From Fulvivirga aurantia (GTDB lineage: Bacteria; Bacteroidota; Bacteroidia; Cytophagales; Cyclobacteriaceae), in the NCBI RefSeq assembly GCF_009711475.1, contig NZ_SMMD01000934.1, forward strand, positions 1 to 21,601: a stretch of DNA of 21,601 nucleotides, read 5' to 3'. A program made the position numbers and the translations under genes. The notes under the pieces are model-generated. The model did no database searches. It saw only the letters and a program-made list of their open reading frames with translations, and was not told where the DNA came from. Shown here piece by piece: positions 1-20,020 of the stretch (within the stretch, counting starts at the first letter, position 1; each line of letters starts with the position of its first letter).

Positions 1-1722
1 TAAAGCAGCTTCCTTCTGCTCTTCAGCATCACGTTCATTGTCTTTAGCTATCTTTTCGTTTTTCTGTGCAAGTAAAGCATTAGCTTCAGCTCGTTGCTTT
101 TGACCTTCAGCTATTGTTCGTTGCTCTCTGGCTTCAGCGTTTTTGTAGAAAGCAAAAATCAGAAAAGCAATACAAACCACACATGCTGTACCCAATACTA
201 CAGCAACTATACGTGCCTGACGTAGTCTCCTTTTCTGCTGAAGTTCTTTTATGCGTTGCTCTGTTTCAAACTCCTTTCTTGAGTACTCAAGAAAAATCAT
301 CGTTCGCTCAAACGCTGGATGGTATCGTTGACCCCATACTAAGGTAGGCTTATGTTTGGCTTGCCAGTTGAGGGCCAATTGTAAATCGGGTGGCCGCCAT
401 AAACCGGCTTTCCCTACCTGATACATGGCCGCTGCTTCGCTTAGTCTAAGGTACATTTGTACGGCCTCAGCTTCATCGTCAACCCAATTTTTTAACCTGA
501 TCCAGATACGCATGAGGCTTTCATGCGAAATGTCGATCATCGACTTGGAGTCTAGTCTAATATGAGCAGCTGGGGTGAGTAATGAGCGACCGGGCTCTCT
601 GAATTTATCGATTACAGCTATAAGTTCAGCTTCAGATACATCGGCTATGGCAGCGATTTCTCCTAGTCGGGTGGGGCGTCTTATGCCAAAGTTTTCACCT
701 CGTTTTTCTGTAATTGCCTTAAAAAGAGATTCGCAAATTTCTTTTTGGTCATCAGTAAGTTCATCGTAAGCTTCATTGGCGTGTAGAGAAAGGGCTTCTT
801 CCATTGTGCCAATCGCCTCGTAATGTTTGATGTCTACTGGCTCATCAACACGATCTTTAAACCTTGACCAATAGCTCCAGGTACGCATAAGCGCATGCTG
901 TAAAATAGGCAACTGATCAGGATTGTCGCCCAAATCATTCAGCAATTGCTGGGTGAGTCTTGAAGTTATTTCTGCACCACCAACGGCTACCGGTCCAATT
1001 ATAGCCTTACGCTTTTGCTCGCGGGTCATCTGAGGGATGAGGTAGTGACTGTCGTTTATTTTTTTTGTAAGGTCAGGGAATTGAGCACAGTCACCAATAA
1101 AATCAGACCTCATGGTAATACCAATGTAAATTGGAGCATCGGGGTAGTCGACAGCCTCCATGAGTAGGTTTACGAAGGCCAGAGTTTCATTAACCGAACC
1201 AGCATCTGCACTATCTTTAAACCGAAATAGTTCTTCAAACTGATCGACCAAAATCAGGTAGTTTTTATCTTCTGACTTCCTTAATTGCAAGATGGCTTCC
1301 ACAAGCCCAATAGAGCTGCTCTTTAATAGCGTAGTAATGATCGTGCGCTTAATCCTTTTTTCGTCATCATCTGCGACAATGTAATCGGGATCTTTTTTTA
1401 GTAGAGATTCAGCTAAATTATCAATTGGGCCAGCTCCGGGGCGAGTAACCACGACTTCCCAGTTGGGGCTGGTATTCGTGAGAAAGCCGCCATAGAGAAT
1501 AGGGAGTACTCCGCAGTAGATAAATGAAGATTTACCACTACCAGATGGACCAATAACCCCTACAAATCGATTTTTTGAAAGCTTTAGAAGTACTTCATCA
1601 CTTTGTCCTTCACGACCAAAGAAAAGGTGACTTTCGTCTATTTTGAAAGGTCTCAGTCCGGGGAATGGATTAGCCCGATCAAGTTTACTTTTGGTTTCTT
1701 TTACTTCTAAAGCATCACTCAT
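1..1722 (-). CDS. nSTAND1 P-loop NTPase with TM helix and coiled coil (3' end outside window)
   Basis: I read this 574-codon open frame by translating the minus strand; it starts at ATG 1722 and has no stop before the left edge, so the protein is partial. Seen: the motif NPFPGLRPF at residues 18-26, Walker A GPSGSGKSS at 58-66, Walker B LILVDQFEELF at 156-166, and a later TMRSDF sensor-like strand. These are hallmarks of the nSTAND1 class of STAND NTPases. A helical region follows, then one hydrophobic segment at about 503-526 and a charged Ala/Glu/Lys/Gln-rich coiled coil from about 528 to the edge. In this family the missing C-terminus is usually a WD40 or similar repeat sensor; that is inference. 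Expected role: an ATP-dependent switch that oligomerises on sensing a ligand, anchored to the inner membrane. It starts 6 nt after the TIR-like gene stops, so the two are almost certainly co-transcribed. Proteins of this type are often misnamed high-affinity carbon uptake protein Hat/HatR in databases. Confidence 0.88.
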   Translation of the reverse strand, partial: MSDALEVKETKSKLDRANPFPGLRPFKIDESHLFFGREGQSDEVLLKLSKNRFVGVIGPSGSGKSSFIYCGVLPILYGGFLTNTSPNWEVVVTRPGAGPIDNLAESLLKKDPDYIVADDDEKRIKRTIITTLLKSSSIGLVEAILQLRKSEDKNYLILVDQFEELFRFKDSADAGSVNETLAFVNLLMEAVDYPDAPIYIGITMRSDFIGDCAQFPDLTKKINDSHYLIPQMTREQKRKAIIGPVAVGGAEITSRLTQQLLNDLGDNPDQLPILQHALMRTWSYWSRFKDRVDEPVDIKHYEAIGTMEEALSLHANEAYDELTDDQKEICESLFKAITEKRGENFGIRRPTRLGEIAAIADVSEAELIAVIDKFREPGRSLLTPAAHIRLDSKSMIDISHESLMRIWIRLKNWVDDEAEAVQMYLRLSEAAAMYQVGKAGLWRPPDLQLALNWQAKHKPTLVWGQRYHPAFERTMIFLEYSRKEFETEQRIKELQQKRRLRQARIVAVVLGTACVVCIAFLIFAFYKNAEAREQRTIAEGQKQRAEANALLAQKNEKIAKDNERDAEEQKEAAL

Positions 1723-1728
1723 GAGTAT

Positions 1729-3177
1729 CTAGTTTAGGTCTTTAAGAAAAGACTCTAGGGAGTCGATGGTAGAGTTAGTATTAGTATTTATTACAGTTAT
1801 GTCATGATTTTCATAAGCGCTGAGATCCATCATATTGTCTTTGCTACTTATGATAAGCTTTCCTTTTATTGGTTTTCGTCTTCCAAAGCCAGGTGCTTTT
1901 AATAGGTCTAGCAACTTCATGCGTACCCACTGGTCATTTACCTTGCCTTGATAAATAATGGCGGCATCAAAGTCTCGCAGATTGGTGATATGATGCTGGC
2001 GTAAGTCTAGCAATTCTCCATCAAACGTAGGTGTCAAAACCCTGTAGCCAGCGTCTTCTATCGTCTGCTTTATTTCTTTTACATTGTCGGTGTCGCTCTT
2101 ATCGTGTAGTACATAGATGGACGATTTGCCATTGGTACTACCAGTGGCCTTTGACAACCGCTTGTCGATTCCCACCTCAATGAGCTCTTCACGTACAATA
2201 TTCTTAAAATCTTCTAATGGGGTTTGTAGGATCTCTGCACCTTCTGATGACGCCAGGTCTCTTTTTATATTTTCGATAAAGGACAATTGCTTGTCACTGG
2301 CATTTTGAAGATTAGGCGATATCCAAATAAGGCGGGAAAAAGTAGCTTTATCTTTGATTTCGCTACTTCTCTCGGTAGCTAGTTTGTTTTGTAAATCAAC
2401 AACAGACAGGTCAGTGCCTTCCGGTATATCACCATAGCTGCTGCCAATTAAGTGAATTGACAGCTGACAATTGGCTAAGTCATTTTTTACCTGCGATTTT
2501 AGCAAATCCAAATCCTGAGGCTGGGTATGGTCAGGAAGTATTTTATAACCATGGCGCTGCAGGTCTCTTTTAATAATGTTTCTCTGGATCGAGAGGTCAT
2601 GGCCAGTTTCGGCCAGGTAAATATTTCTTCTTGAGTAAATAGATTTTACATCTCCTACATCGCTTTGATTTAGCGAGATATAAGACTCATGGATGTCATA
2701 GGCAAGATCTACCATTTTCATCCAATAATTCTTTTCAGCATCCGGTCCGAAAAAGTCTTTGTACTCTTCAATCTCACCGCTTTCTGGATTTATGAAGTAC
2801 AAGTCATAGCCCAATTTGTCTTTTAATTTCAAAGGCTGCTGATCTAAGGGCAGGGGTGTTTTCAGCACTTTGAATATTCTGTAGGGATCGCTCGGACTTA
2901 TGTTTTTATGAAATTCTTCAATCGTGTCAAGGCAAGCACCGGAAGACATAAATTCTTCTGATAAAACAGGAATCAATATGCCAACGTCCTGAAGATTTGC
3001 CGCAGTAATACTATCGTCTTCAGCCTTCATCAAAACGTTTGGTTTTTCGCCTAAAACCTGCAGAAGCATCATTTCTAAAAATCGTTTAAAGTCGGTAACC
3101 CAACCATTGCCGGTTTCTGAGGCTTGTGCGTTGTCAGACGCTGAATACACAATTAATATATCAATATCAAAGGCCAT
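1729..3177 (-). CDS. Triple TIR-like domain protein
   Basis: A 482-residue soluble protein without signal peptide or membrane segment. Three Rossmann-like TIR/DUF4062-like modules can be traced. Module 1 (about 4-165) opens with DIDILIVYSASDN and carries VGILIPVLSEEF followed by SGACLDTIEEF (79-89), which resembles the S-x-x-C-x-x-E region around the catalytic Glu of TIR NADases; E87 or E88 is the candidate. Module 2 (about 184-332) contains NIYLAETGHDLS, then LSIHLIGSSYGDIP (239-252), as in DUF4062/TIR-like folds, but I see Gln where a Glu would be expected. Module 3 (about 352-482) contains SIYVLHDKSD, DAAIIYQG and W417-VRMKLLDLLKAPGFGR, a pattern I associate with TIR proteins encoded beside nSTAND1 ATPases. 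The gene lies 22 nt after the transporter-HEAT gene and 6 nt before the nSTAND1 gene. NAD hydrolysis is possible but not shown; it may instead be a TIR scaffold or adaptor. Confidence 0.78.
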   Translation of the reverse strand: MAFDIDILIVYSASDNAQASETGNGWVTDFKRFLEMMLLQVLGEKPNVLMKAEDDSITAANLQDVGILIPVLSEEFMSSGACLDTIEEFHKNISPSDPYRIFKVLKTPLPLDQQPLKLKDKLGYDLYFINPESGEIEEYKDFFGPDAEKNYWMKMVDLAYDIHESYISLNQSDVGDVKSIYSRRNIYLAETGHDLSIQRNIIKRDLQRHGYKILPDHTQPQDLDLLKSQVKNDLANCQLSIHLIGSSYGDIPEGTDLSVVDLQNKLATERSSEIKDKATFSRLIWISPNLQNASDKQLSFIENIKRDLASSEGAEILQTPLEDFKNIVREELIEVGIDKRLSKATGSTNGKSSIYVLHDKSDTDNVKEIKQTIEDAGYRVLTPTFDGELLDLRQHHITNLRDFDAAIIYQGKVNDQWVRMKLLDLLKAPGFGRRKPIKGKLIISSKDNMMDLSAYENHDITVINTNTNSTIDSLESFLKDLN

Positions 3178-3199
3178 AAAGACTGTAAAATTTCGTTAT

Positions 3200-6100
3200 T
3201 TATTCGGTTACTAATTGTTTGCTTATATTTTTTATAAATCCCTGTGCCAGCTCATGATGATTGGCCATTACATTGTAAAAATCATGCACTGATAGTTTAA
3301 AAATTACCGTGCGCTTAATACCAACAAGAGCGTCAATAGAAGCAGGATTATCCAGTTCGAATACATTTCCAAATGCTTCTCCTTCGCTTAATCGTTTAAT
3401 TTCTACATCATTACTGTACAAACTCACCTCTCCCTCTGCAATAATATAAATTTGCTCACCTTCATCTTTCTTAGAAATTTGTAAAGTTTGATTAGCTGAA
3501 ATAATGGTGGTTGAAATCTTATCTACAAGATCACATAAAATGACACCTTTTATGTTCTCAAATGCATGTATTCCTTTCAATTTCATGACCATTTCTATGC
3601 CCAGAAAAAAGCCATCGTCAAGACCCTCTAGCAATCTGTTTTTTTCAAGAGAGTCTTCCAGAAATCTGCGTGTATCCGGTTTCAATCGCTGTGCAACAGC
3701 ATCAAATTTAGCACTGTCTTTATGGTAAATTACCCATGCCGCGGCCTCCTGGAGTAACTTATCACTATTAAAGAGTTGGGCAAGCAGCCCTCTACTAATT
3801 CTAAAATCTGGCAAAAAGGCAATGGCATGTAGCGCGCAGGCTTTTGTCCAACGATTGATTTGATTGTAATTTTTGTTTAGCAGGTAGTTTAATACCTGAA
3901 TCTCGTTATAATCCTCTCGTGGAAAATGCACCTGAAGTATTCTTACTTTCTCGGTCACTGAAATATCGTCTAACAAAGGGAATAACTTAGGCTTGAGTTC
4001 CTGGCTTACAAACAGGTCGAGTAGCTCAATGGCAAATGCGATCCCATCACTCGTGCCTCTCTCTATATTTTCTCTAACCAGCTGTACAGATTGCGGGTCG
4101 TAAAGAATGGAAAGAATAACATATATGGTATCTAAATTGCCAGCTATTTCTTCTTTTAAAGCCTCTCTTAAATAGTTGTAGTGCTCATCGTGAGAAAGTT
4201 CAGTAAGCGCTGCCAGATTCCAAATGGTCTTTCCTATTTCTGTTTCCAGCAGATTCGTGAGGTTATTAATCTCTTTTTGGTTAGCCTGGTAATTGAAATA
4301 GCGGTACGATAAAAGTATTTGCTTTACAATCCGCTTATCTGGATATTCTATTTTGTTCCAAAGCAGCTCTATAGCCTTATGCCCACCGATACGCCCCATG
4401 ATCTGTACTATCTTGAGCATAGAGTTATCAGTTTGTCCAGATTTATGGAAAGCTGATTCGAGATGAAATAATGCCGGTTGTCCGGCTTCGATAAGTGCGG
4501 CAGTTGCTGCACTACTATACTTGGGAGAATCAAGAAGCTCGATTAATATGGTCCATGTTTCAGGTCTCTTTACACTCCGGGCTGTTATAAGGGCTTGAGC
4601 CTTTACCTTAGGGTCAATATCTCTGAGCAGCTCAAGCAGAATGAAAATGTTTTCATCACTTATCAATTTTCTTAAAAGCTTAGCGGCCAATATGCGATCA
4701 CTGCTTTTTATTGATTTACTGAGCTTGTGTAATTTTTCAGGTGGTACCGAAAGCAGTTCATTATCTTCTGCCTCGAGGGCAGCTTTGCTTGCCAGTTTGG
4801 CGAGTTCAGTTCTGGGACTAAAAGACAGATCAAGAGCTTTAATTTTCTCTTTGGCATAATGCTTTACACTTCTTGAGCTACTTTCCTGCAGCTTTAAAAT
4901 CGAAGACTCAAATAGAGCAGGCTCGAGTTTCTCCATAAGTTTGAGCCCATACAATATCTTATGGTCATCTTTGCTGTTAATTTCCTTTTCTAAAACTCTG
5001 TTCACAGCATACTCCCGCTCTGAATCGTGCTCATGCTCAACTTTATTGTTGATCAGGGTATTGTGCAAAGTATGCCTATAGCTGTTGTGCATCTTTGTAG
5101 TTACGAAATACCAAATAGCTAATACTGGTAGTGTAAATATGGAGATGTGAATGAGTGAAAATACATCTACATTGTTTATAAGAATGATCAGACCACCTGC
5201 CATAAGTCCAGCAAATGCAGTGATTACACCCTCAACCTTAGTTTGTACATCAAAGCGAATGGCGCCATCGATCGGGAGGAAAAACAGCTTAAATGCAGGC
5301 CCATCGAGTGCATCTTTGAGGGAAGAGCTAAACAGCTTACTCATAGAGATGATGATAAAGAAGAAGATAAATGTCGTACTTTCTGAACCATATCCGAACG
5401 CATATCCCATGGGGATAGCTACAATCGTGAATAAAGCCAGTAGCAAAGGATTAATCAAAAGCGATACTTTCAAACCATACAAGGCAATGATTCTATCGGT
5501 AACGAATGTTTGAAATAGAAAACTAAAAATAACTACAGCTGCCTCAAATAAACTGAGAAAGCTTGGTAATGCGTTGTCGTTGAATTGTGCCGTAGTTACA
5601 CTTAAAAATGAGTAGTCGATAAACTTAACAGCCACCATAGAAACAATTACGAATAGTGCCATAAGCCCCATATACTTGTTTTTGATGATAGCTTTGTAGC
5701 CAACACTTTGGTTGTCGGCAATACTTTTCTTGATCTGTTTCTTAAAAGTGATGACAAGAAAAATCAGTAAATAACCGACTATGCTGAGAAGTGTAACAAA
5801 CAGCAGCTGTTGTGTAGTTATTACTTTATTAATTACAATCGGAATGGCAAATAGCGCTATTATCGAGGCTATGAGTTGCCCGGTATCGATGCTGCCGATA
5901 ATTCTTTTAGACTGCCTGAGGTTAAACATCCGACCGAATGTTCCCCAAAATATCAACAGTATAATAAAGTTTGAAGGCACGATAAACGTAAAAGCAAAAA
6001 AGTGAATAATTTCTACGTTTTCTACAGACCGGAAGGCGATTTCAATGGCGAGAAGAATAAGGGTAATTATGATTGTGGCGCCAATGGCCAGGCTGGTAAA

Positions 6101-6355
6101 CTTGACTTTACCCTGAAAGAAGTTATAAATGGCTGTGAAGATGATACCTAAAACACCAGAAACCAAAAGAGCCAGTGCCAGTTGCTGTTCGAGTTGAGCA
6201 CCTTCATAGCTTTGGAGAAATAGGGTAGAAGCACCTACCGATAAGGTGGCCAGGTAAATACCCATGAAGAAACCCATTCCCAATAAGAAAAATACGCGTA
6301 GAGATTCATCTTCCTCTACGTTGAGTATTTTTAATATCGTATTCTTAAAGCCCAT
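3200..6355 (-). CDS. Npt/NTT-like transporter fused to HEAT repeats and a cNMP-binding-like domain
   Basis: A 1051-residue three-part protein. Residues about 20-420 are highly hydrophobic with roughly ten to twelve membrane helices and look like the Npt1/Npt2 (ATP/ADP translocase, NTT) branch of MFS-type carriers; the segment FFLPIDGAIRFDVQTKVEG near 358-376 is typical of that group. Residues about 470-900 are alpha-helical pairs of HEAT type (for example DPKVKAQALITARSVKRP at 581-598). Residues 937-1051 form a Crp-like cyclic-nucleotide-binding fold with the GEVSLYSND strand pattern. The phosphate-binding cassette reads FGNVFELDNPASID (995-1008) and lacks the Glu and Arg that bind cyclic nucleotide in CRP, so ligand binding is doubtful. 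It is the first gene of a tight cluster with the TIR-like and nSTAND1 genes. Its role is inferred: a membrane nucleotide transporter, or a sensor or effector derived from one, with cytoplasmic protein-binding repeats. Transport substrate unknown. Confidence 0.8.
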   Translation of the reverse strand: MGFKNTILKILNVEEDESLRVFFLLGMGFFMGIYLATLSVGASTLFLQSYEGAQLEQQLALALLVSGVLGIIFTAIYNFFQGKVKFTSLAIGATIIITLILLAIEIAFRSVENVEIIHFFAFTFIVPSNFIILLIFWGTFGRMFNLRQSKRIIGSIDTGQLIASIIALFAIPIVINKVITTQQLLFVTLLSIVGYLLIFLVITFKKQIKKSIADNQSVGYKAIIKNKYMGLMALFVIVSMVAVKFIDYSFLSVTTAQFNDNALPSFLSLFEAAVVIFSFLFQTFVTDRIIALYGLKVSLLINPLLLALFTIVAIPMGYAFGYGSESTTFIFFFIIISMSKLFSSSLKDALDGPAFKLFFLPIDGAIRFDVQTKVEGVITAFAGLMAGGLIILINNVDVFSLIHISIFTLPVLAIWYFVTTKMHNSYRHTLHNTLINNKVEHEHDSEREYAVNRVLEKEINSKDDHKILYGLKLMEKLEPALFESSILKLQESSSRSVKHYAKEKIKALDLSFSPRTELAKLASKAALEAEDNELLSVPPEKLHKLSKSIKSSDRILAAKLLRKLISDENIFILLELLRDIDPKVKAQALITARSVKRPETWTILIELLDSPKYSSAATAALIEAGQPALFHLESAFHKSGQTDNSMLKIVQIMGRIGGHKAIELLWNKIEYPDKRIVKQILLSYRYFNYQANQKEINNLTNLLETEIGKTIWNLAALTELSHDEHYNYLREALKEEIAGNLDTIYVILSILYDPQSVQLVRENIERGTSDGIAFAIELLDLFVSQELKPKLFPLLDDISVTEKVRILQVHFPREDYNEIQVLNYLLNKNYNQINRWTKACALHAIAFLPDFRISRGLLAQLFNSDKLLQEAAAWVIYHKDSAKFDAVAQRLKPDTRRFLEDSLEKNRLLEGLDDGFFLGIEMVMKLKGIHAFENIKGVILCDLVDKISTTIISANQTLQISKKDEGEQIYIIAEGEVSLYSNDVEIKRLSEGEAFGNVFELDNPASIDALVGIKRTVIFKLSVHDFYNVMANHHELAQGFIKNISKQLVTE

Positions 6356-6450: not shown

Positions 6451-7356
6451 TTAAGTGTCGGAAGATTTGAGCTGTTCAAACCCACTTCTTAAATTGAGGT
6501 CTCTTTGAGGGAATGGAATTTCTATGCCCGCTTCTCTAAACCTTTTAAACACAGCAAAATAAAGCTGGCTTTTTAGAATATTTGGTCTATTGATGTACTC
6601 AGTAGTCCAAACGCGCAGGTGGAAGTCGAGTGAGCTGTCGCCAAACTCATTAAATAAAACCTGGGGGCCGGGCTTTTTTAAAACTCCGGAGTTATCTTCC
6701 GCTACTTCAAGCAGTATTTTTTTTACAAGTTTTGGGTCTTCTTTGTAGGAGACACTGATGTTATATCTAAAACTCACATTTCTGTCGTTGTGACTCCAAT
6801 TGATCACAGTAGAAGATATAAACTCAGAATTAGGCACGATGACCGATATATTATCATTGGTCACCACTGTGGTCGCTCTTGCTGAAATTTTAATTACATC
6901 GCCTTTTATGTCAGCGACTTCTATACGGTCGCCAACTTTTATAGGTTGCTCAAAAAGTATAATAAGACCCGAAATGAAGTTGTTGGTGATGTTTTGTAAG
7001 CCAAAACCGATACCAACACCCAACGCACCAGCAAGTATACTCAATGTACTTAGGTCGATTCCGGCCGTTTGTACAATAACTATAAGACCCACCACCAAAA
7101 TGATGTAACGAATAATGGTAGAAATAGAGTGAACTACCGAAGGGCTACTTGTGTACTTTACCAGTATAGACCTGCTTAATAATCTGCTAAATCGACCTGA
7201 AAGAAAAAACAGTAGAAATATGGCACCAGAGACATATACAAGTGTAAGCAGGGTGATGTCTGACTTGCCGAGGGTAAAAAGTGTTTCGTTAAAAAGGAGA
7301 CCAAAATCCCTTAAAAATTCCCAAATAAGATTAAAAAAATCTTTAACTCCATCCAT
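6451..7356 (-). CDS. Small-conductance mechanosensitive channel, MscS family
   Basis: A 301-residue inner-membrane protein. Seen: membrane helices at about 36-53 and 80-100, then the pore-lining TM3 region with the Gly/Ala-rich helix SILAGALGVGIGFGLQNI and the following NNFISGLIILFEQPIKVGDRIEV, the best-conserved stretch of the MscS family. A beta domain with VVTNDNISVIVPNSEF and a C-terminal alpha/beta cytoplasmic domain ending at FPQRDLNLR follow. Length matches E. coli MscS (286 residues). Expected role: opening under membrane tension to release solutes during osmotic downshock. It is transcribed in the same direction as the downstream transporter-HEAT gene but separated by a 95-nt structured gap, so operon membership is uncertain. 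It is divergent from the OmpA-family gene. Start at ATG 7356; no clear Shine-Dalgarno. Confidence 0.93.
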   Translation of the reverse strand: MDGVKDFFNLIWEFLRDFGLLFNETLFTLGKSDITLLTLVYVSGAIFLLFFLSGRFSRLLSRSILVKYTSSPSVVHSISTIIRYIILVVGLIVIVQTAGIDLSTLSILAGALGVGIGFGLQNITNNFISGLIILFEQPIKVGDRIEVADIKGDVIKISARATTVVTNDNISVIVPNSEFISSTVINWSHNDRNVSFRYNISVSYKEDPKLVKKILLEVAEDNSGVLKKPGPQVLFNEFGDSSLDFHLRVWTTEYINRPNILKSQLYFAVFKRFREAGIEIPFPQRDLNLRSGFEQLKSSDT

Positions 7357-7484: not shown

Positions 7485-9809
7485 ATGAGACAATCTATTA
7501 CTACTACATTATTAACTTCTCTTTTGTTTTTATCGCTTCAACTGCATGCGCAGGATGCTGATAAACTCATTTCTGACGCTGATAAATATTTCAAGATCAG
7601 AAATTATAGTGAAGCACTTCCTTTGTATCTGGAAGCTATTGAAAAAGGAGCAAAAGATCCTATGACCTACTATAGGGTGGCGGTAAGTTATGAGCAATCT
7701 TTTGAGATTGATAATAAGGTTAAATCAATTCCATATTTTGAATATGCGATTGAGAATGGTCAGGATGGTTTACCAAAGAAAGTCTATTTTGATCTGGCTA
7801 ATGTATACCATCTCAATGAGCAAATTGACGAAGCCTTAACATATTACGAAAAGTACAAAGAGGCTGTTGGTAATGATAGAAGGGCACTAGGTGAAGTAAA
7901 TCGGGCATTGCAGGTAGCAGGCAATGCTCGTATGATGATGAACAGCCCTAGAGATATCGAAATATACAATTTTGGTACTGTTGTAAACTCCCAATATACA
8001 GAGTATAACCCTGTAGTTTCGGCTGATGAAAGTGTAATGGCTTTTACAGCGTTGAGACCTAATACAGGAAAAACGAGGTCAAATGAAGATTTTGTTGAGG
8101 AAGTTTATATTTCTTACAACAGCTCTGGCAACTGGACACAGCCACAGCCAATAGAAATTATTTCAGACTATAATGTGGGTACTGCGGGCCTTTCTGCTGA
8201 CGGGCAACGCATGATGGTTTTCATTGGTGGTGCTCAGGGAACAGGAAATCTATACTCGATCAGTAAATCAGGAGCAAGTTGGTCTAAGCCCACTTCGCTA
8301 GGAAATCGCATAAACTCAAGACACCTTGAAACCACCGCAAGTCTTACTCCGGATGGTAAAACCATTTATTTTGCCAGTAACAGACCAGATGGCTATGGTG
8401 GTTTAGATATTTATATGGCCAAAATGCAGGAAAACGGAGAGTGGGGAGCCCCTGTTAACCTTGGCCCTGAGGTCAATACCAAATACAATGAAGATGCACC
8501 ATTTATTCATCCAGACCAATGGACATTGTTTTTTACATCTGATGGCCATAATACAATAGGTGGTCGCGATATATTCGTAACGAGATTGTTTAATGAAGAG
8601 TGGACAACCCCTGAAAATATGGGTTACCCAATTAATACAACAGCAAATGACAATTATTTTAACCTGACGGCAGATGGTCGTAAAGGATACTTTTCTTCTG
8701 ATCGTAAAGGCGGCCAGGGCGGCCAGGATATTTATAGCATAGAAATGCCAGAAGAGGAGGCGAATATTCCGCTTACGATGGTAAAAGGTAGAATTTTAGA
8801 TGGTGAAACTATGAAGGCCCTACCAACCACCATCTATGTGATTGATAAGGAGTCTGGTCAGAAGTTAGATTTCGTATATCAGCCAGATCCGGAAACAGGA
8901 AACTACCTCATCATTTTACCTCCGGCCAAAAACTACGATATGATCATTGAGTCAGAAGGTTTTCTACCTTATACGCTTAATATAAACGTTCCGGGTCAGA
9001 CTTATTTTTATGAGTTGTATCAGGAAATACTCCTTAAAACAATTAAGCAGTTTGATGTTGTGGTTGGTCAGGAAGTAGAAGTTAGAAATGCCTTTTATGA
9101 TACACACGAAGATGCCGTTACAGACTTGAGGCAGTCGCACGAAGCTACATTGGTAAAATCAGATAGTGTAGATGTCTATGACATGATGAATGACCTTATT
9201 GCTGCTGAAGATCAAAAAGGGATTGAATACCTCACAGGTCTTATCTACATGGCAAACCCTATTGACGATGTTAAGTTTGCCAAGAGCGACAAGCTGGAGG
9301 CTGCATCACGCGTATATTATTATGATGAGAGTGACGAGAGCAAGTTTGAGAAAAAAGAAATAGACGGTAAGACCATATTTTCTTTACCTACCATGTATGT
9401 AACCGAGGAAGCTGAAAAGCAAAAGAAAATGGCTGATAAAAAGCCTAAAGAATATGCTTCTGAGATCATCGATAAAGAGGTGAAAATTTACTTCGATGTA
9501 GCGAAAAGCGAGCTTGATGCCAGTTATAACGGTAAACTTGATGAGGTGGTGACTATACTTCAACAAAATGAGGAGCTGGGAGTACAAATTTCAGGTTATG
9601 CCTCTGCCGAAGGTAATGCTGACTATAACAGAGAGCTTTCTAATAAAAGAGCCATTGCTGTGCTTGACTACATCAATCAGAAAGGTATAGTGAGAAGAAG
9701 GATAATCGCTAAGGGGCAGGGTGAAGCTGAAGAAAGTGCGAGTCAGGAAGAGGCCAGACGCGTTGAAATCGCGATTGTAGATCTTAACCAGTTTGGCAGG
9801 GTGAGGTAA
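7485..9809 (+). CDS. PorE-like TPR-PD40-CRD-OmpA family outer-membrane-associated protein
   Basis: A 774-residue exported protein. Signal peptide at 1-22 with cleavage predicted after LHA, leaving Gln at the mature N-terminus. TPR-like helices follow at about 24-150 (DADKYFKIRNYSEALPLYLEAIE), then a PD40/WD40-like propeller at about 165-425 with recurring units such as TPDGKTIYFASNRPDGYGG and ADGRKGYFSSDRKGGQGG. A carboxypeptidase-regulatory-like beta domain sits at about 430-515 and an OmpA/Pal C-terminal domain at about 655-770. This order is that of PorE, the peptidoglycan-linked part of the type IX secretion system, but Bacteroidota carry several paralogues, so the symbol is withheld. In the OmpA domain the motif reads GYASAEGN: the Asp that contacts diaminopimelate in GHTD-type domains is Ser here, while the later Arg (LSNKRA) is kept. 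Divergent from mscS; ends at a strong terminator. Confidence 0.88.
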   Translation: MRQSITTTLLTSLLFLSLQLHAQDADKLISDADKYFKIRNYSEALPLYLEAIEKGAKDPMTYYRVAVSYEQSFEIDNKVKSIPYFEYAIENGQDGLPKKVYFDLANVYHLNEQIDEALTYYEKYKEAVGNDRRALGEVNRALQVAGNARMMMNSPRDIEIYNFGTVVNSQYTEYNPVVSADESVMAFTALRPNTGKTRSNEDFVEEVYISYNSSGNWTQPQPIEIISDYNVGTAGLSADGQRMMVFIGGAQGTGNLYSISKSGASWSKPTSLGNRINSRHLETTASLTPDGKTIYFASNRPDGYGGLDIYMAKMQENGEWGAPVNLGPEVNTKYNEDAPFIHPDQWTLFFTSDGHNTIGGRDIFVTRLFNEEWTTPENMGYPINTTANDNYFNLTADGRKGYFSSDRKGGQGGQDIYSIEMPEEEANIPLTMVKGRILDGETMKALPTTIYVIDKESGQKLDFVYQPDPETGNYLIILPPAKNYDMIIESEGFLPYTLNINVPGQTYFYELYQEILLKTIKQFDVVVGQEVEVRNAFYDTHEDAVTDLRQSHEATLVKSDSVDVYDMMNDLIAAEDQKGIEYLTGLIYMANPIDDVKFAKSDKLEAASRVYYYDESDESKFEKKEIDGKTIFSLPTMYVTEEAEKQKKMADKKPKEYASEIIDKEVKIYFDVAKSELDASYNGKLDEVVTILQQNEELGVQISGYASAEGNADYNRELSNKRAIAVLDYINQKGIVRRRIIAKGQGEAEESASQEEARRVEIAIVDLNQFGRVR

Positions 9810-16536: not shown

Positions 16537-19071
16537 TTAATTTCCAATTAGCACAAATGGCGCCCAATAGAATGGCTGGCTATATTGTGATTTAATCATC
16601 TCTACTTTAGCCTGTCGTAGAGACTTGCTGTAATCTTCTGACTCAATATTTTGGTAGAAATTGGTCATTAAGCTAGCCGTGGAGTTATCAGCCACCTTCC
16701 ATAAAGAAACCATGATGTTTTGTGCACCAGCGTAAACCAGCGCCCTTGATAGACCAATAATACCTTCCCCTTTAGATATCTTGCCCAGGCCAGTTTCGCA
16801 AGCAGATAGTGTAACTAAATCGGCACTTAAATTCAAATTATAAATTTCTCCAGAATATAGATTCCCATCGTTATCCTGATCATTGTCTTGTCTTAAAAAA
16901 ATACGAGAGAGCTCTGGTGAGTACTCATCTACAATGCCGTGTGTGGCAAAATGTAAATAGTTGTATTTGTTCAACTCCTTTGTTTTAAAGTCAGTTTCGG
17001 TGGCATTAGCTTCCAGCAATACATCTGGTTTTACCCCTTTATTTTCTAAAATGGTTTTCAAACTAGCCACTTCCTGACCAGAACCTGGTAAGTCCTGTAA
17101 TGTCTGAAATTGTACCGGTGCGCAAAGTAGAGCAGCTTTATCAGTTTCATCAGAGGTTGATTTTCCGGCATTTACATAAAAAAGGGTAGAGGCATATTGG
17201 TAAGAAACGGAGTAGTCATTTATTAGGTAAGGTAATTCAGCATAATTAAAGTCAGTTTGCTTGGTGTTTTCAGTAAGTAGGGCCTCAAATGGGATAGTGC
17301 CTAGTCTGCCTGCCGGTATTATTACCAGATGCTCTATGCTTTTCGACAACTTAGAAGGAAACAGTAAATCATAGAGTGCTTCTCCTGTAATTTTGTAAAT
17401 CTCTTTTTCTTTAAAATAAAGGCTGTTTCTAAAGCCACTCAGATACCTGTCAAAGTCTTCCGTTTGGCTTACGTTGTCAACCTTTAGTTTCTTATTGGTA
17501 ATTTGAAATATATAAATGCGTAAGGTGGCATCTGCAATAAAGTAACTTATAAGTGCTGTATTGTCTGATAAGCGATTCTGCAGTTTATCAATCGATGGTA
17601 TGTTAATGTTGTATTTCAGGTTGTAATATTCGGGGTATTCTTTTTCTAATGATTTAACGAATGCAGCATACTCTTTTTTCAGTTCGAATAGAGAGGTTCT
17701 GTATTGCTCAGAATCTGCCGTGTGTTCAGACAGTTTTTGTTCGTAAAATGCTATTTCAGTCTTAAACTTATTTTCTATTTCAATCTGACTTTTAGGGATG
17801 TTGGCAAAGCTTTTGGCAGAAGCATCTGAGATGGCCTGTAGCAGCACAGCAGACTTGCTTTTCTCAGCGAAATAAAAGGCGTGTTCAAAGTACTCATCTT
17901 TCTTCAATGAAAGGTCGGCCATAGCGTAACCAATCCTTACGCCATTTTCATAAACTTGGTCAGAAATAGCGCCTAGGGCTATTTTATCCTGCTTATTAGT
18001 AGACACTTTTCTGATTTCATCGATAAGCGAATCGCAGACATAGAGCGTGCTTAGGCTCATTTTCAGGTCTTTAAAATCCAGCGAAAAGTTAAAATGATAA
18101 TCTTCAAGCGCCTGTGCTTTAAAGTATAGCGAGTTCATCAGTGTATTGGCATCGAGATAATTGTTGTGAGTAGGGTTGTGTTCGATTCCAGTTTTTTCAA
18201 AATCATAAGTGTTGGCTATGAGTGCTTTTTGGTAAAAATTGAGTGCTTGTTCAAACTCACCTTCGCTATTTATCAGGTTTCCAATACGGTTATAGGTTCT
18301 GGCTATATCGGGATGTTTTTGTTCATAGACTTTTAGGTAGGTGTCTAATGCATTATTATAGGCTAATCTGGCATCTTCCATCTGGCCCATGGCAAAATAA
18401 GTATCACCCAGGCCGAAAAATATAAAGCCTTGAATCGGATGACCTGTCGGGTATAACTGTTGCGATAGGCTTAATGCTTCCTCAAAGTTGAGTATTGCAT
18501 CCCCATAAAATTCCAGCTGTCGGTACATACTGGCAATGTTTGATTTCACCTGAACCACCTTAGCTTCGTCAACATCTTTTTCAGCCTGGTAGAGTTTAAG
18601 TGCCTTGAGGTAATTATCAAGTGCGGCATCGGTATCAGAATTGCTCAAAATCAGACCAAAATCATTATAAGTGGCAGCAAGATCTTGTTGGCTTTTTTCT
18701 CGTATTTCAAGCGCCAGCAACATGTGGTTAAGTGCTTTGTTGTTATCTCCTGCACTCCAGGAAGCTAAAGCTATTTTGTTAAGTGCTTCTGCTTTTCCAC
18801 TTTCATTATTAGCCAGGTCGAGTGCTCTTTCGAAATACAGAAGGGCCTTGTCTGTTTGTCCTTTTCGTAGGTGATATTCTCCAATTTGGTTTAAGCACAG
18901 TGAGTTGCTTTTATCAGCTTCAAATTGACTAACTAAACTGGCTGCTTCAAGAAGTTTTCCAGCTTCAATGAGCGCATCGAGCTTTTCACACTGTTGAGCA
19001 GTGGCACTTTGTAGTACAAAAAGTAATGTTAGGGTTAAGAAAACCCGATATGTTTTAGAAAGTAAGGACAT
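16537..19071 (-). CDS. Secreted TPR-CHAT domain protein (caspase-like peptidase fold)
   Basis: An 844-residue exported protein. Start taken at ATG 19071 because it gives a clean signal peptide (MSLLSKTYRVFLTLTLLFVL...ATA, then QQCEK); an in-frame ATG at 19089 would add six residues. TPR repeats cover roughly residues 30-290 (GQTDKALLYFERALDLA, GEFEQALNFYQKALIAN and others), a helical linker follows, and the C-terminal third is a CHAT domain of the caspase/separase clan. Catalytic residues appear intact: His711 in LHFATHG and Cys758 in LSACETG; IPFEALL and the terminal FYWAPFVLIGN are also family-typical. The signal peptide places it in the periplasm or at the outer membrane, unlike cytoplasmic CHAT effectors such as those of gRAMP systems. 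It overlaps the end of the upstream barrel gene by 17 nt and is followed at once by the SDR gene. The protein target is unknown. Confidence 0.9.
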   Translation of the reverse strand: MSLLSKTYRVFLTLTLLFVLQSATAQQCEKLDALIEAGKLLEAASLVSQFEADKSNSLCLNQIGEYHLRKGQTDKALLYFERALDLANNESGKAEALNKIALASWSAGDNNKALNHMLLALEIREKSQQDLAATYNDFGLILSNSDTDAALDNYLKALKLYQAEKDVDEAKVVQVKSNIASMYRQLEFYGDAILNFEEALSLSQQLYPTGHPIQGFIFFGLGDTYFAMGQMEDARLAYNNALDTYLKVYEQKHPDIARTYNRIGNLINSEGEFEQALNFYQKALIANTYDFEKTGIEHNPTHNNYLDANTLMNSLYFKAQALEDYHFNFSLDFKDLKMSLSTLYVCDSLIDEIRKVSTNKQDKIALGAISDQVYENGVRIGYAMADLSLKKDEYFEHAFYFAEKSKSAVLLQAISDASAKSFANIPKSQIEIENKFKTEIAFYEQKLSEHTADSEQYRTSLFELKKEYAAFVKSLEKEYPEYYNLKYNINIPSIDKLQNRLSDNTALISYFIADATLRIYIFQITNKKLKVDNVSQTEDFDRYLSGFRNSLYFKEKEIYKITGEALYDLLFPSKLSKSIEHLVIIPAGRLGTIPFEALLTENTKQTDFNYAELPYLINDYSVSYQYASTLFYVNAGKSTSDETDKAALLCAPVQFQTLQDLPGSGQEVASLKTILENKGVKPDVLLEANATETDFKTKELNKYNYLHFATHGIVDEYSPELSRIFLRQDNDQDNDGNLYSGEIYNLNLSADLVTLSACETGLGKISKGEGIIGLSRALVYAGAQNIMVSLWKVADNSTASLMTNFYQNIESEDYSKSLRQAKVEMIKSQYSQPFYWAPFVLIGN

Positions 19072-20020
19072 AAGACAGGGAAAGTACATTGTCTCGTGTT
19101 AGCCCATCCGGGTTTACATCTCTATCTGTAATTTTTAAACCATACAAGAGTCGGGTTGTATGCTTAGTATTAAAGTGGTAAGCTACATTTAGCAATCCTG
19201 TAAGCGCCATACCTGTAGTGCCTTCCAGCTTTATTCTTTCTCCTGAGTCTCTATCTAAAATTTCATCTTTAGATATCCTGAAAATAGGAAGCAGACCTGC
19301 TCTTATGTCAAGGTTTGAGAAGTGAAAAGCGCGCTCAACCCTCAGCATGACATCGGTACCTCTCTCAAGATTTGTAGCCAAATCATAATCTCTTAGATAG
19401 GCAGGGTCAGGGTAATTTTGCCACTGGTCGTATTGAAAATCATTTTCATTATTGTGTGCTATTGGTGTTTGGATCCCTGCCGCAAACATCCATTCTTTAC
19501 TAATAAAAGCACCACCAAGTACGAGATCAAAAGTCCCTAAGCTGGTCTGATAGTACATCGGCAGATCAGCGGTTTGCACTCCATCAGTTAGGTTTTCGCT
19601 GTTTAGCTCTTCATCTAGGTCACCATTGTTTGTTGGAATTTTAAACCCAAGCGTACCATTGATGTGAAATTTCTCGGTGGAGTACATATTACGAGTCAGG
19701 CTCAACGATAAATCTGCGACTCCTGCAGTATTTCCCAGACTTCCATCCACCCATTGATAGGGCAGCTTAAATTGAAGGTTTGTCTTTTCGTTGATACCGA
19801 AAGTAAAATCTAAAGTAGCTGCGTTTATGGTAGGGGTGAGTTCAGTTTCTCCTTTATAGTAGCTAAACTCTAGCGCTCTAAGTTTGAAATTTATCTTTTT
19901 GGTATAAACCTGGCTCGGTCGCATGGCACCCATAGAACAAAACCCGGCATCGCTACACCCCTGGCTGTAAACACTACCCTGAACCAAAACAAAAGCCAAC
20001 AATCCTAAGACATATTTCAT
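19055..20020 (-). CDS. Outer-membrane beta-barrel-like protein of unknown function
   Basis: A 321-residue exported protein; start chosen at ATG 20020 because it begins a clear signal peptide (MKYVLGLLAFVLVQGSVYS) with Gln at the predicted mature end. The open frame extends upstream to 20086, but those extra residues are hydrophilic and lie in a structured intergenic region. The mature protein starts QGCSDAGFC with two Cys close together, then shows alternating hydrophobic/polar strands throughout (INFKLRALEFSYYKG, TNLQFKLPYQWVDG, FHINGTLGFKIP, NVLSLSYVLTF) and ends in a C-terminal Phe strand, all as in outer-membrane barrels of the transporter/phenol-degradation-protein-like type. SQGC is not a good lipobox. 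I do not recognise a specific family. Its end overlaps the CHAT gene by 17 nt, suggesting the pair is made together. Confidence 0.75.
   Translation of the reverse strand: MKYVLGLLAFVLVQGSVYSQGCSDAGFCSMGAMRPSQVYTKKINFKLRALEFSYYKGETELTPTINAATLDFTFGINEKTNLQFKLPYQWVDGSLGNTAGVADLSLSLTRNMYSTEKFHINGTLGFKIPTNNGDLDEELNSENLTDGVQTADLPMYYQTSLGTFDLVLGGAFISKEWMFAAGIQTPIAHNNENDFQYDQWQNYPDPAYLRDYDLATNLERGTDVMLRVERAFHFSNLDIRAGLLPIFRISKDEILDRDSGERIKLEGTTGMALTGLLNVAYHFNTKHTTRLLYGLKITDRDVNPDGLTRDNVLSLSYVLTF

Follow-up and report, generated by a model that had tools for sequence, protein, structure and literature searches.

Gene organisation of the locus

The window, the whole 21,601-nucleotide stretch of Fulvivirga aurantia DNA analysed here, is contig C230 in its entirety. 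Its minus strand carries three open reading frames in tandem, and ORF calling reproduced the arrangement described in the first-pass annotation, with spacings of 22 nt and then 6 nt. These genes encode a fusion of an NTT carrier, HEAT repeats and a cyclic-nucleotide-binding domain (cNBD; NPT), a TIR-like protein (TIR) and an nSTAND1 NTPase (NST) that is truncated by the contig end (Table 1). The missing part of NST, with the coiled coil and WD40 domain, is very probably the start of a separate contig, C267 (L084:1-1380), on which an outer-membrane barrel protein (OMP), a lipoprotein-like protein (LP) and a giant protein sorted by type IX secretion (T9SS) are encoded next. Copies of the operon in this genome number three, fragmented over contigs. 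These three genes are the inner half only of a longer operon: the three-gene cassette originally proposed is indeed an old and conserved unit, but one that runs on into OMP, LP and T9SS genes.

Table 1 Features of the window and of the contig that very probably continues the operon
Feature	Location	Strand	Description
NPT	3200..6355	-	1051 aa; NTT-family carrier (~1-440), HEAT (~440-920), degenerate cyclic-nucleotide-binding fold (~920-1051)
TIR	1729..3177	-	482 aa; TIR-like / DUF4062 / TIR-like, no conserved catalytic Glu, no leader
NST, 5′ part	1..1722	-	574 codons, open at contig end; nSTAND1, TM helix, start of coiled coil
TPR-PD40-OmpA gene	7485..9809	+	Divergent neighbour outside the operon; domain order like PG1058
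OMP	L084 1377-2417		After the probable NST remainder on contig C267
LP	L084 2414-3619		After OMP on contig C267
T9SS-sorted protein	L084 3640-9549		1969 aa; after LP on contig C267

A conserved operon with a near-fixed NST-OMP pair

Relatives carry at least three further genes beyond NST, in the order NPT, TIR, NST, OMP, LP and a giant T9SS-secreted protein; these orders rest on simple six-frame gene calling together with profiles from 16 loci. The order NPT to LP is exact in 55 of the 62 named loci that have at least 7 kb of sequence on the right-hand side of NPT; the other seven comprise three without TIR, three gene-call variants and one (L202) with NPT alone. This named set keeps 80 of 208 relatives, and most of its loci come from related Cyclobacteriaceae/Flammeovirgaceae MAGs. 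NPT, TIR and NST share a locus at 25 of 39 NPT loci from other genomes of the order Cytophagales, spanning 12 families (40 regions chosen among the matches, mostly the best, with the 3.1-kb contig L016 excluded). Rare co-occurrence outside close relatives, which the first-pass annotation had named as evidence against a system, is thus not what is seen inside the order. Beyond it, 10 of 12 fetched NPT relatives have no NST within the fetched stretch, and the other two (L103 and L105) have NST in another arrangement. NPT is solitary at L045, L063, L064, L066 and L072.

NST and OMP form a near-fixed pair. Among 94 distinct NST genes, 93 were testable and 88 of these are followed on the same strand by a gene matching OMP/TPR models (98 of 103, from 105 NST, before strict removal of duplicates). 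Where the locus includes NPT the count is 80 of 82, and where it does not, 8 of 11; since most NST genes were fetched through NPT, the pairing is best judged by the 11 NPT-free cases. The five exceptions among the 93 are L065, L126, L207, L208 and L212, the last from a genome in which OMP lies further on, at L235. At L203, L205 and L206 the TIR-NST-OMP-LP-long-gene operon is complete and NPT, missing there, is located elsewhere in the genome.

Upstream neighbours vary between families. Within the family, the TPR-PD40-OmpA gene (OMPA) adjoins NPT in all five fetched main-copy loci and the QueA flank is kept in four of the five, at odds with the variable genomic placement anticipated earlier; a genus of the same family, g3, has an NPT match in none of five genomes. 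Such an OMPA gene lies at most two genes upstream of NPT in 27 of 65 named loci. We did not find the operon described in the literature searched, which consisted of published papers, few of them from subscription journals, and the available part of PMC7159879 mentions neither nSTAND, NTT nor the outer membrane.

Domains and predicted topology of the encoded proteins

Profile searches bear out the nSTAND1, HEAT and NTT assignments made from the letters alone. Window NST matches nSTAND1 (PF20703) with E 5.9e-94, and its Walker A/B residues (G58, S60, G61, G63, K64, S65 and D160-Q-F-E-E) are invariant across 20 sequences. A TM helix begins at residue 505, and the full-length relative L034 has WD40. 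A hydropathy script combined with charge finds one TM in 79 of 94 distinct NST proteins; the remaining 15 have two or three hydrophobic stretches. Lys plus Arg per 15 residues averages 5.87 before the TM versus 2.55 after it, with the excess before in 93 of 94. Read by the positive-inside rule, this charge pattern would place the NTPase with TIR and NPT, and WD40 with OMP and LP; we infer an inner-membrane NST with a cytoplasmic NTPase and a periplasmic coiled coil and WD40 propeller. Joint loss of the C-terminal Cys pair in L042 hints at a disulfide. We rejected this disulfide as proof of a periplasmic site and treat it as suggestive, given that exactly two Cys follow the TM in just 46 of 94 proteins (three in 30, four in 11). 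The available text of PMC12635249, on disulfide-linked outer-membrane proteins in gliding, offers no direct link to the operon.

NPT contains a HEAT_2 match (E 6.7e-9) and a cNMP_binding match narrowly under the cut-off (26.6 versus 27.5 bits). Its N-terminal part resembles solved NTT ADP/ATP carriers as a single sequence (E 2.1e-7), and a profile of 13 relatives matches the solved NTT 9j3n over residues 113-425 (E 4.8e-23). The N-terminus is therefore homologous to these carriers, and nucleotide transport is a predicted activity. The phosphate-binding cassette of cyclic-nucleotide-binding domains, as in PKA and CAP, carries an Arg; the NPT cNBD shows no conserved Arg across 22 sequences in an alignment judged by eye. 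Because the cNBD lacks it, cyclic-nucleotide gating of the carrier is not favoured.

Window TIR falls just short of the DUF4062 cut-off (24.4 versus 24.7 bits) and matches TIR_2 below threshold, and across 43 family members scanned, DUF4062 is found in 42 and TIR_2 in 40 (E<=0.05). Similarity of the first domain to the TIR chain of TLR6 is weak (E 0.073), so a count of three TIR-like domains, proposed in the first-pass annotation, is plausible and unproven. In SARM1 the catalytic Glu (E642) lies four residues past a conserved Trp. The third TIR domain has W417 and K421 in 43 of 43 sequences, which puts an invariant Lys at that position. In the first domain the position of T85 is variable, and E269 of the second, conserved in 33 of 43, lies outside the catalytic motif. 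With the catalytic Glu not conserved, NAD hydrolysis by this protein is not favoured. By these alignments key residues of both TIR and cNBD are lost, and the TIR protein is a probable cytoplasmic scaffold or adaptor.

The remaining genes point to the envelope. Leader-like N-termini occur in 64 of 66 OMP and 61 of 66 LP proteins, against 3 of 66 for TIR as a control. OMP joins a TPR domain to an outer-membrane barrel, which may be a small one (PF13568) or a TonB receptor carrying the same TPR domain; at the three loci scanned, the TonB variant comes with an extra protein of Reg_prop-Y_Y_Y type that also has a SpoIIE or HATPase_c domain. A crude pattern finds a lipobox in only 37 of 66 LP proteins, and one of three LP proteins scanned for domains matches no family. 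Candidates for gene 6 end in a type-A T9SS sorting domain (PF18962/TIGR04183) in 14 of 15 tails, the copy at L084 with E 1.2e-15; the fifteenth candidate (L097) carries an ATPase domain of histidine-kinase type and probably does not represent gene 6 of the operon. Four scanned copies of the giant protein show PKD/Ig-type and sorting domains only. SprA is encoded in the window genome. NST, TIR and NPT are not known to be T9SS parts.

Divergence and co-variation of operon blocks

Over 66 operons, a set that includes five near-duplicates, the NST NTPase part has the highest mean identity of all blocks (75%), followed among those compared here by OMP TPR (49%), NST WD40 (39%), OMP barrel (28%) and LP (26%). 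The fast-changing nSTAND1 C-termini expected of a conflict system do not appear, WD40 diverging at a rate between those of the two parts of OMP. Given the rest, the NTPase co-varies with TIR (0.69-0.76 over three subsets), and in 29 non-redundant operons WD40 goes with OMP/LP (0.35, versus -0.19 with cytoplasmic blocks). The two directions recur in 200 and 195, respectively, of the 200 half-samples, against only 155 and 168 for the internal controls, slow TPR and fast cNBD. When all 66 operons are used, TPR has no preference (0.14 versus 0.12) and that of WD40 is slight (0.20 versus 0.02). The split in part mirrors rate classes; co-evolution groups the NTPase with TIR/NPT, and WD40 with OMP/LP, more weakly than the charge evidence does.

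A sister group beside contractile injection systems

A sister group of NST lies beside or within gene clusters of contractile injection systems (CIS), which carry sheath, tube, spike, gp25 and baseplate-J genes. The grouping comes from a rapidly built tree that covers 63 of 109 rows over the first 560 residues, with long branches flagged; it holds one gene twice (L078 and L080) and four near-identical rows, and L077 was labelled CIS by inference before the tree was made. Of the best 83 of 89 genomes with a match, 37 have both an NPT-family gene and a sheath gene; in 14 of these 37 the two are no more than 30 kb apart, versus 0.6 expected under uniform gene placement. The 14 span eight genera, with four in g67, three in g38 and two in g42. 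Since 3 of 14 control genomes also match the sheath family, some of these sheaths could belong to phage or pyocin tails. The NPT relatives of genomes G061 and G088 are of a longer kind. No CIS genes stand beside the window operon.

A proposed trans-envelope STAND signalling system

Switches of the STAND/NLR type have mostly been described as sensors in the cytosol. The products of this operon are likely to span the envelope, judging from gene order, domains, the single TM of most NST proteins, positively flanked towards the NTPase, the near-fixed NST-OMP pairing and the gene-6 sorting signal. For the role of this assembly our best reading, which we hold at about even chance, is trans-envelope STAND signalling with a contact or ligand sensor; outside-in sensing, a direction that we propose, could equally be right or wrong. 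The periplasmic WD40 propeller of NST would read the periplasmic TPR domain of OMP, which in turn would connect to the lipoprotein and the giant surface protein. A surface event, be it contact, a ligand or load borne by the giant protein, would be relayed to the NTPase, which would then switch state and assemble with both the TIR/DUF4062 scaffold and the HEAT-cNBD region of NPT. The output, the least certain step, may be that the NTT carrier is gated or that a client in the cytoplasm is recruited; in the sister group this client would be a contractile injection particle.

The docking and firing of non-T6SS CIS at the envelope are little understood. A possible but doubtful reading is that NST, OMP and NPT form an envelope-spanning docking and trigger complex for Cytophagales CIS, the window's T9SS operon being a paralogous branch in which the giant surface protein replaces the injection machine. 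The STAND switch would feel outer-membrane contact and let a cytoplasmic contractile particle dock or fire, and the window genome would hold both kinds, the CIS kind on contigs C924, C629 and C326. The NST sister group is a concrete and testable candidate for a part in CIS docking or firing.

The same anatomy could serve traffic in the other direction, a reading to which we give tentative weight: NST would spend ATP on building, energising or retaining a surface apparatus of outer-membrane and T9SS parts, sensing nothing, with the giant protein as adhesin or filament and TIR and NPT-HEAT as assembly or regulatory platforms. The placement of OMP, LP and the giant protein after NST fits this, as do the gene with PG1058-like domain order near NPT in 27 of 65 named loci and the conserved NTPase set against divergent barrels and lipoproteins, as if one motor served several surface parts. 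STAND NTPases, however, are known as switches, not motors, and the TonB variant brings regulator-like genes. Import of nucleotides from lysed prey or debris through barrel, lipoprotein and NTT carrier, regulated by NST and TIR, would draw on the carrier family of NPT and on the OMP and LP genes, but complete operons stand without NPT beside them and the giant protein, in the four copies scanned, offers nothing beyond PKD/Ig-type and sorting domains; we consider this improbable. That the genes are neighbours by descent without joint function is suggested by the relatedness of most named loci and seems to us very improbable: NPT, TIR and NST remain linked in 12 families although upstream neighbours differ, and the NST-OMP pair persists without NPT, with the other barrel type and in the CIS setting.

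The first-pass annotation had proposed a conflict system in which NST senses invasion, TIR consumes NAD and NPT shifts nucleotide pools. Both nSTAND1 and TIR do occur in predicted conflict systems (PMC8195603 and PMC10907252, available parts), and the operon is patchy between genera, as the five g3 genomes without an NPT match illustrate. Against this defence role, PADLOC returns only marginal, partial P-loop, TIR and cNBD matches (best 8.4e-6, on the NPT cNBD), the window genome has three fragmented copies, and the TIR protein was not found in 50,697 phage records and partially matched in 2 of 72,556 plasmid records. The TIR without catalytic Glu, the cNBD without Arg, an NST that is conserved and has no hypervariable part, and synteny within the family make an anti-phage function unlikely, with little probability left to it in our view, and the outer-membrane, lipoprotein-like and T9SS genes inside the operon are not predicted by a cytosolic defence model.

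Were trans-envelope signalling correct, it would constitute a new bacterial route for surface information inward, with a STAND switch wired to an outer-membrane barrel. It would also give a role to NTT-HEAT-cNBD proteins, which the available text of Major, Embley and Williams (2017; PMC5381601) describes as common across bacteria and of unknown function, the HEAT part being proposed for protein contacts.

Relation to known systems

NPT has the same three-part architecture as those fusions. That text, as far as available, treats the protein alone, without the STAND, TIR or outer-membrane partners present here, and the cNBD of our NPT differs in lacking the phosphate-binding Arg. TIR-like and cNBD folds recall Thoeris, CBASS-TIR and PycTIR effectors, from which the operon differs in having no conserved catalytic Glu, a degenerate cNBD and no signal synthase seen among its genes. 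Gene 6 shares the type-A sorting domain of type IX secretion substrates, and the TPR-PD40-OmpA gene near the window operon resembles in domain order PG1058, a T9SS component according to the available part of PMC5053529. Among extracellular CIS, AlgoCIS is reported to have particles in the cytoplasm that are never membrane-anchored (PMC8894135, available text, which mentions no transporter, cyclic or AAA terms); the NST sister group adjoins CIS gene clusters, whereas the window operon does not. The periplasmic NACHT-CLec STAND protein predicted in the DGR study, in the available part of PMC10907252, is different from the present operon. Another likeness is to nSTAND1-WD40 STAND/NLR-like receptors (PF20703), with which NST shares the Walker A/B motifs, the nSTAND1 domain and a C-terminal WD40 propeller; it differs from them in the TM between NTPase and propeller, in a propeller predicted to be periplasmic, in the absence of an effector fusion and in its near-fixed outer-membrane barrel partner.

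Operon content and spread

The three genes at the left of the window encode an NTT carrier–HEAT–cNBD protein (NPT), a TIR-like/DUF4062 protein (TIR) and an nSTAND1 NTPase–transmembrane (TM)–coiled coil–WD40 protein (NST), and our ORF call placed them on the minus strand with the intergenic gaps of 22 and 6 nt reported in the first-pass annotation. The window is an entire contig (C230) of an assembly of 947 contigs with 98.9% completeness. Fulvivirga, Cyclobacteriaceae, other Cytophagales or Bacteroidota are the names among the best-listed 120 relatives of NPT and of TIR, and of the 194 genomes searched in the order, 89 hold an NPT match. We fetched 39 further NPT loci from the order: all three genes occur together in 25 from 12 families (with an additional ORF inside the set in L036, L051, L061 and L067), NPT and NST without TIR in six (L043, L053–L057), NPT and TIR without NST in three (L069; L044 and L046, both near a contig end) and NPT alone in five. 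The proposal that NPT, TIR and NST form a conserved unit agrees with these counts but places the boundary too early: further genes of the operon lie 3′ of the cassette. The gene 3′ of NST encodes about 360 aa with a leader-like N-terminus, a TPR-like domain and a PF13568 barrel (OMP); a lipoprotein-like protein of 390–470 aa (LP) follows, with SBBP/delta-60-like repeats in two of three scanned; and the third gene is very long, the T9SS sorting domain PF18962 being present on 14/15 last-gene tails. The exact order NPT>TIR>NST>OMP>LP is found in 55 of the 62 loci, from a named set of 80, that have at least 7 kb right of NPT; the others comprise three without TIR, three with a missed, split or extra ORF and one NPT alone.

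Features of the window and of related loci
Feature	Location	Strand	Remark
NPT	3200-6355	minus	ORF, left part of window
TIR	1729-3177	minus	ORF, left part of window
NST	1-1722	minus	ORF, left part of window; open at contig end
MscS-type channel gene	6451-7356		between NPT and TPR-PD40-OmpA gene
TPR-PD40-OmpA gene	7485-9809
TPR-CHAT protein gene	16537-19089		850 aa
Gene just before CIS	L222:7649-9424
Gene just before CIS	L234:1321-3180
CIS clusters beside or around NPT/NST/OMP	L070/L099, L071/L100, L212/L235, L215/L236
CIS clusters beside or around NPT/NST/OMP	L222, L223, L224, L237, L238, L239, L240/L241, L243

The first gene piece on contig C267 of the window genome is the C-terminal half of an NST, which aligns with residues 577–1054 of a relative; OMP, LP and a 1969-aa protein with a leader-like N-terminus, PKD/Ig domains and a T9SS tail follow. 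T9SS SprA is present in the genome. C267 fits as the continuation of the NST cut at the window's edge, and we infer this contig join. Two further fragmented copies lie on C647/C107, where TIR is missing between the end of NPT and NST, and on C924/C629. The C629 copy carries one in-frame TAG within its NST match, possibly a true end, decay or an assembly error.

Elsewhere in the window, an MscS-type channel gene stands next to NPT; the five main-copy loci fetched from the family lack it at this place. The TPR-PD40-OmpA gene resembles the T9SS component PG1058 in domain order and lies at most two genes upstream of NPT in 27/65 named loci. The TPR-CHAT protein (CHAT E 1.9e-64), a candidate caspase-like peptidase, is flanked by ORFs of 343 and 235 aa.

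Topology and partners of NST

A single hydrophobic segment occurs within residues 400–620 in 79 of 94 distinct full-length NST proteins (two or three in the other 15). Because Lys and Arg are more frequent before than after this segment in 93/94 (5.87 versus 2.55 per 15 residues), sequence predicts the NTPase inside and the coiled coil and WD40 outside. A conserved RNM-EW-YV-TC motif lies at the C-terminus; L042 has lost both the motif Cys and its partner Cys, weak support for this topology since the number of Cys beyond the TM segment is exactly two in only 46/94 proteins.

The gene directly 3′ of NST matches the OMP/TPR models in 88 of 93 testable cases, 80/82 where the locus includes NPT and 8/11 where it does not. 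L203, L205 and L206 hold TIR-NST-OMP-LP and a long gene with no adjoining NPT, and L204 and L210 likewise retain the NST–OMP pair. An alternative barrel, a TPR domain on a TonB-dependent receptor, is found by Pfam in L103, L105 and L110 and assigned in L119 from size and TPR match. In this variant a small gene separates receptor and NPT (GNAT, FeeM-like, in L110; no Pfam match in L103 or L105), and a Reg_prop-Y_Y_Y protein lies 3′ of NPT, with SpoIIE in L105 and HATPase_c in L103 and L110. L103 and L105 lie outside the order; NST was not found in the fetched stretches of 10 other NPT relatives from outside it. A separate tandem pair of nSTAND1 proteins of about 1350 aa occurs in L217 (adjoined by a 533-aa gene with a TIR-model match) and in genomes G019, G064, G078 and G002.

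Co-evolution of operon blocks

We cut 66 complete operons, 5 being near-duplicates, into 12 blocks and correlated pairwise distances given the rest. One cluster joins the NPT carrier, HEAT and cNBD, TIR1–3 and the NST NTPase; the other joins the NST coiled coil and WD40, OMP TPR and barrel, and LP. The blocks thus form two sets, and NST therefore divides at its TM segment. In a refined run (rank distances, balanced control, 29 non-redundant operons, 200 half-samples), correlations with blocks of other proteins were 0.60 (cytoplasmic) and −0.27 (envelope) for the NTPase and −0.19 and 0.35 for WD40, the direction being kept in 200/200 and 195/200 half-samples. Rate classes may contribute to this split: the slow TPR and fast cNBD, the blocks that separate rate from place, took the predicted direction in only 155/200 and 168/200 half-samples, and across all 66 operons TPR is without preference (0.14 versus 0.12) and that of WD40 is small (0.02 cytoplasmic versus 0.20 envelope).

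Active-site residues

The third TIR domain has W417 and, four residues on, K421 in 43/43 proteins; the matching position in the first (T85) is variable, and the second has E269 in 33/43, outside the motif. Judged by the SARM1 motif, a conserved catalytic Glu is in place in none of the three. By eye, no conserved phosphate-binding Arg was seen in 22 cNBD sequences at the place expected from the phosphate-binding motif. The carrier domain of NPT is truly homologous to NTT proteins, and NTT-HEAT-cNBD fusions have been reported before (Major et al. 2017, PMC5381601).

Association with contractile injection systems

In L070, L222, L223 and L224 (one genus) and in L071, NPT-TIR-NST-OMP is followed by a contractile injection system (CIS) cluster with Pvc16-like, sheath, tube, spike, gp25 and baseplate-J genes, identified by Pfam on L099 and by BLAST against L099 elsewhere. 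An NPT-TIR pair directly adjoins the CIS cluster in G047 and G102; G097 has an OMP fragment and LP before the cluster and NPT after it; G077 and G131 hold NST (E ~1e-217), OMP (~1e-60) and NPT (~1e-84 to 1e-90) among the CIS genes; and the stretch fetched from G090 contains OMP and NPT. The sheath family matches 65/194 genomes of the order and also 3/14 control genomes. Sheath and a listed NPT-family match are both present in 37 genomes, and lie at most 30 kb apart in 14 of these (8 genera, 5 families) versus 0.6 expected.

In a quick NST tree of 63 rows, a branch with SH-aLRT 100 separates 50 rows from 13, the latter comprising nine with a same-contig CIS (four near-identical), the C629 copy, L204, L208 and L216. 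Contig C326 (L234) of the window genome holds a CIS cluster that probably belongs to the third module copy (C924, C629), given the gene order of relatives and the NST tree. The proteins encoded just before the CIS in L222 and L234 are 57% identical. Both have a leader-like start and may be GH18-like glycoside hydrolases.

Signalling, assembly or defence

The first-pass annotation had proposed a defence cassette, a reading that loses ground here. Comparison with PADLOC gave nothing beyond marginal matches, and flanks are conserved in the family (OMPA, the TPR-PD40-OmpA neighbour, in 5/5 and QueA in 4/5 main-copy loci, L034–L038). The window genome holds three fragmented module copies, the NST NTPase is slow (75% mean identity across the 66 operons), and NST shows no hypervariable part. 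TIR occurs in no phage record and as partial matches only in two plasmid records. Defence is further disfavoured because the operon ends in surface genes. We consider anti-phage defence unlikely.

Gene order, domains, NST–OMP pairing, charge asymmetry, T9SS tails and active-site residue losses are the observations from which we draw a model. The barrel would extend a TPR arm into the periplasm and be grouped with a lipoprotein of propeller-like form and a giant protein displayed through T9SS; NST would read this barrel/TPR assembly with its WD40 on the periplasmic side; and the NTPase would then join the TIR/DUF4062 scaffold and the NPT HEAT platform, with carrier gating or client recruitment (the CIS in the sister group) as candidate outputs. 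We favour such outside-in sensing, at roughly an even chance, over an ATP-driven inside-out role in assembly, which we consider unlikely.

The operon and its CIS link were not found described in the literature searched, whose coverage leaves out preprints and most subscription papers. AlgoCIS particles are reported to be cytoplasmic and never membrane-anchored (PMC8894135). Every component falls in a known family, and no known match to the whole was found; the system could be judged a variant form of STAND signalling.
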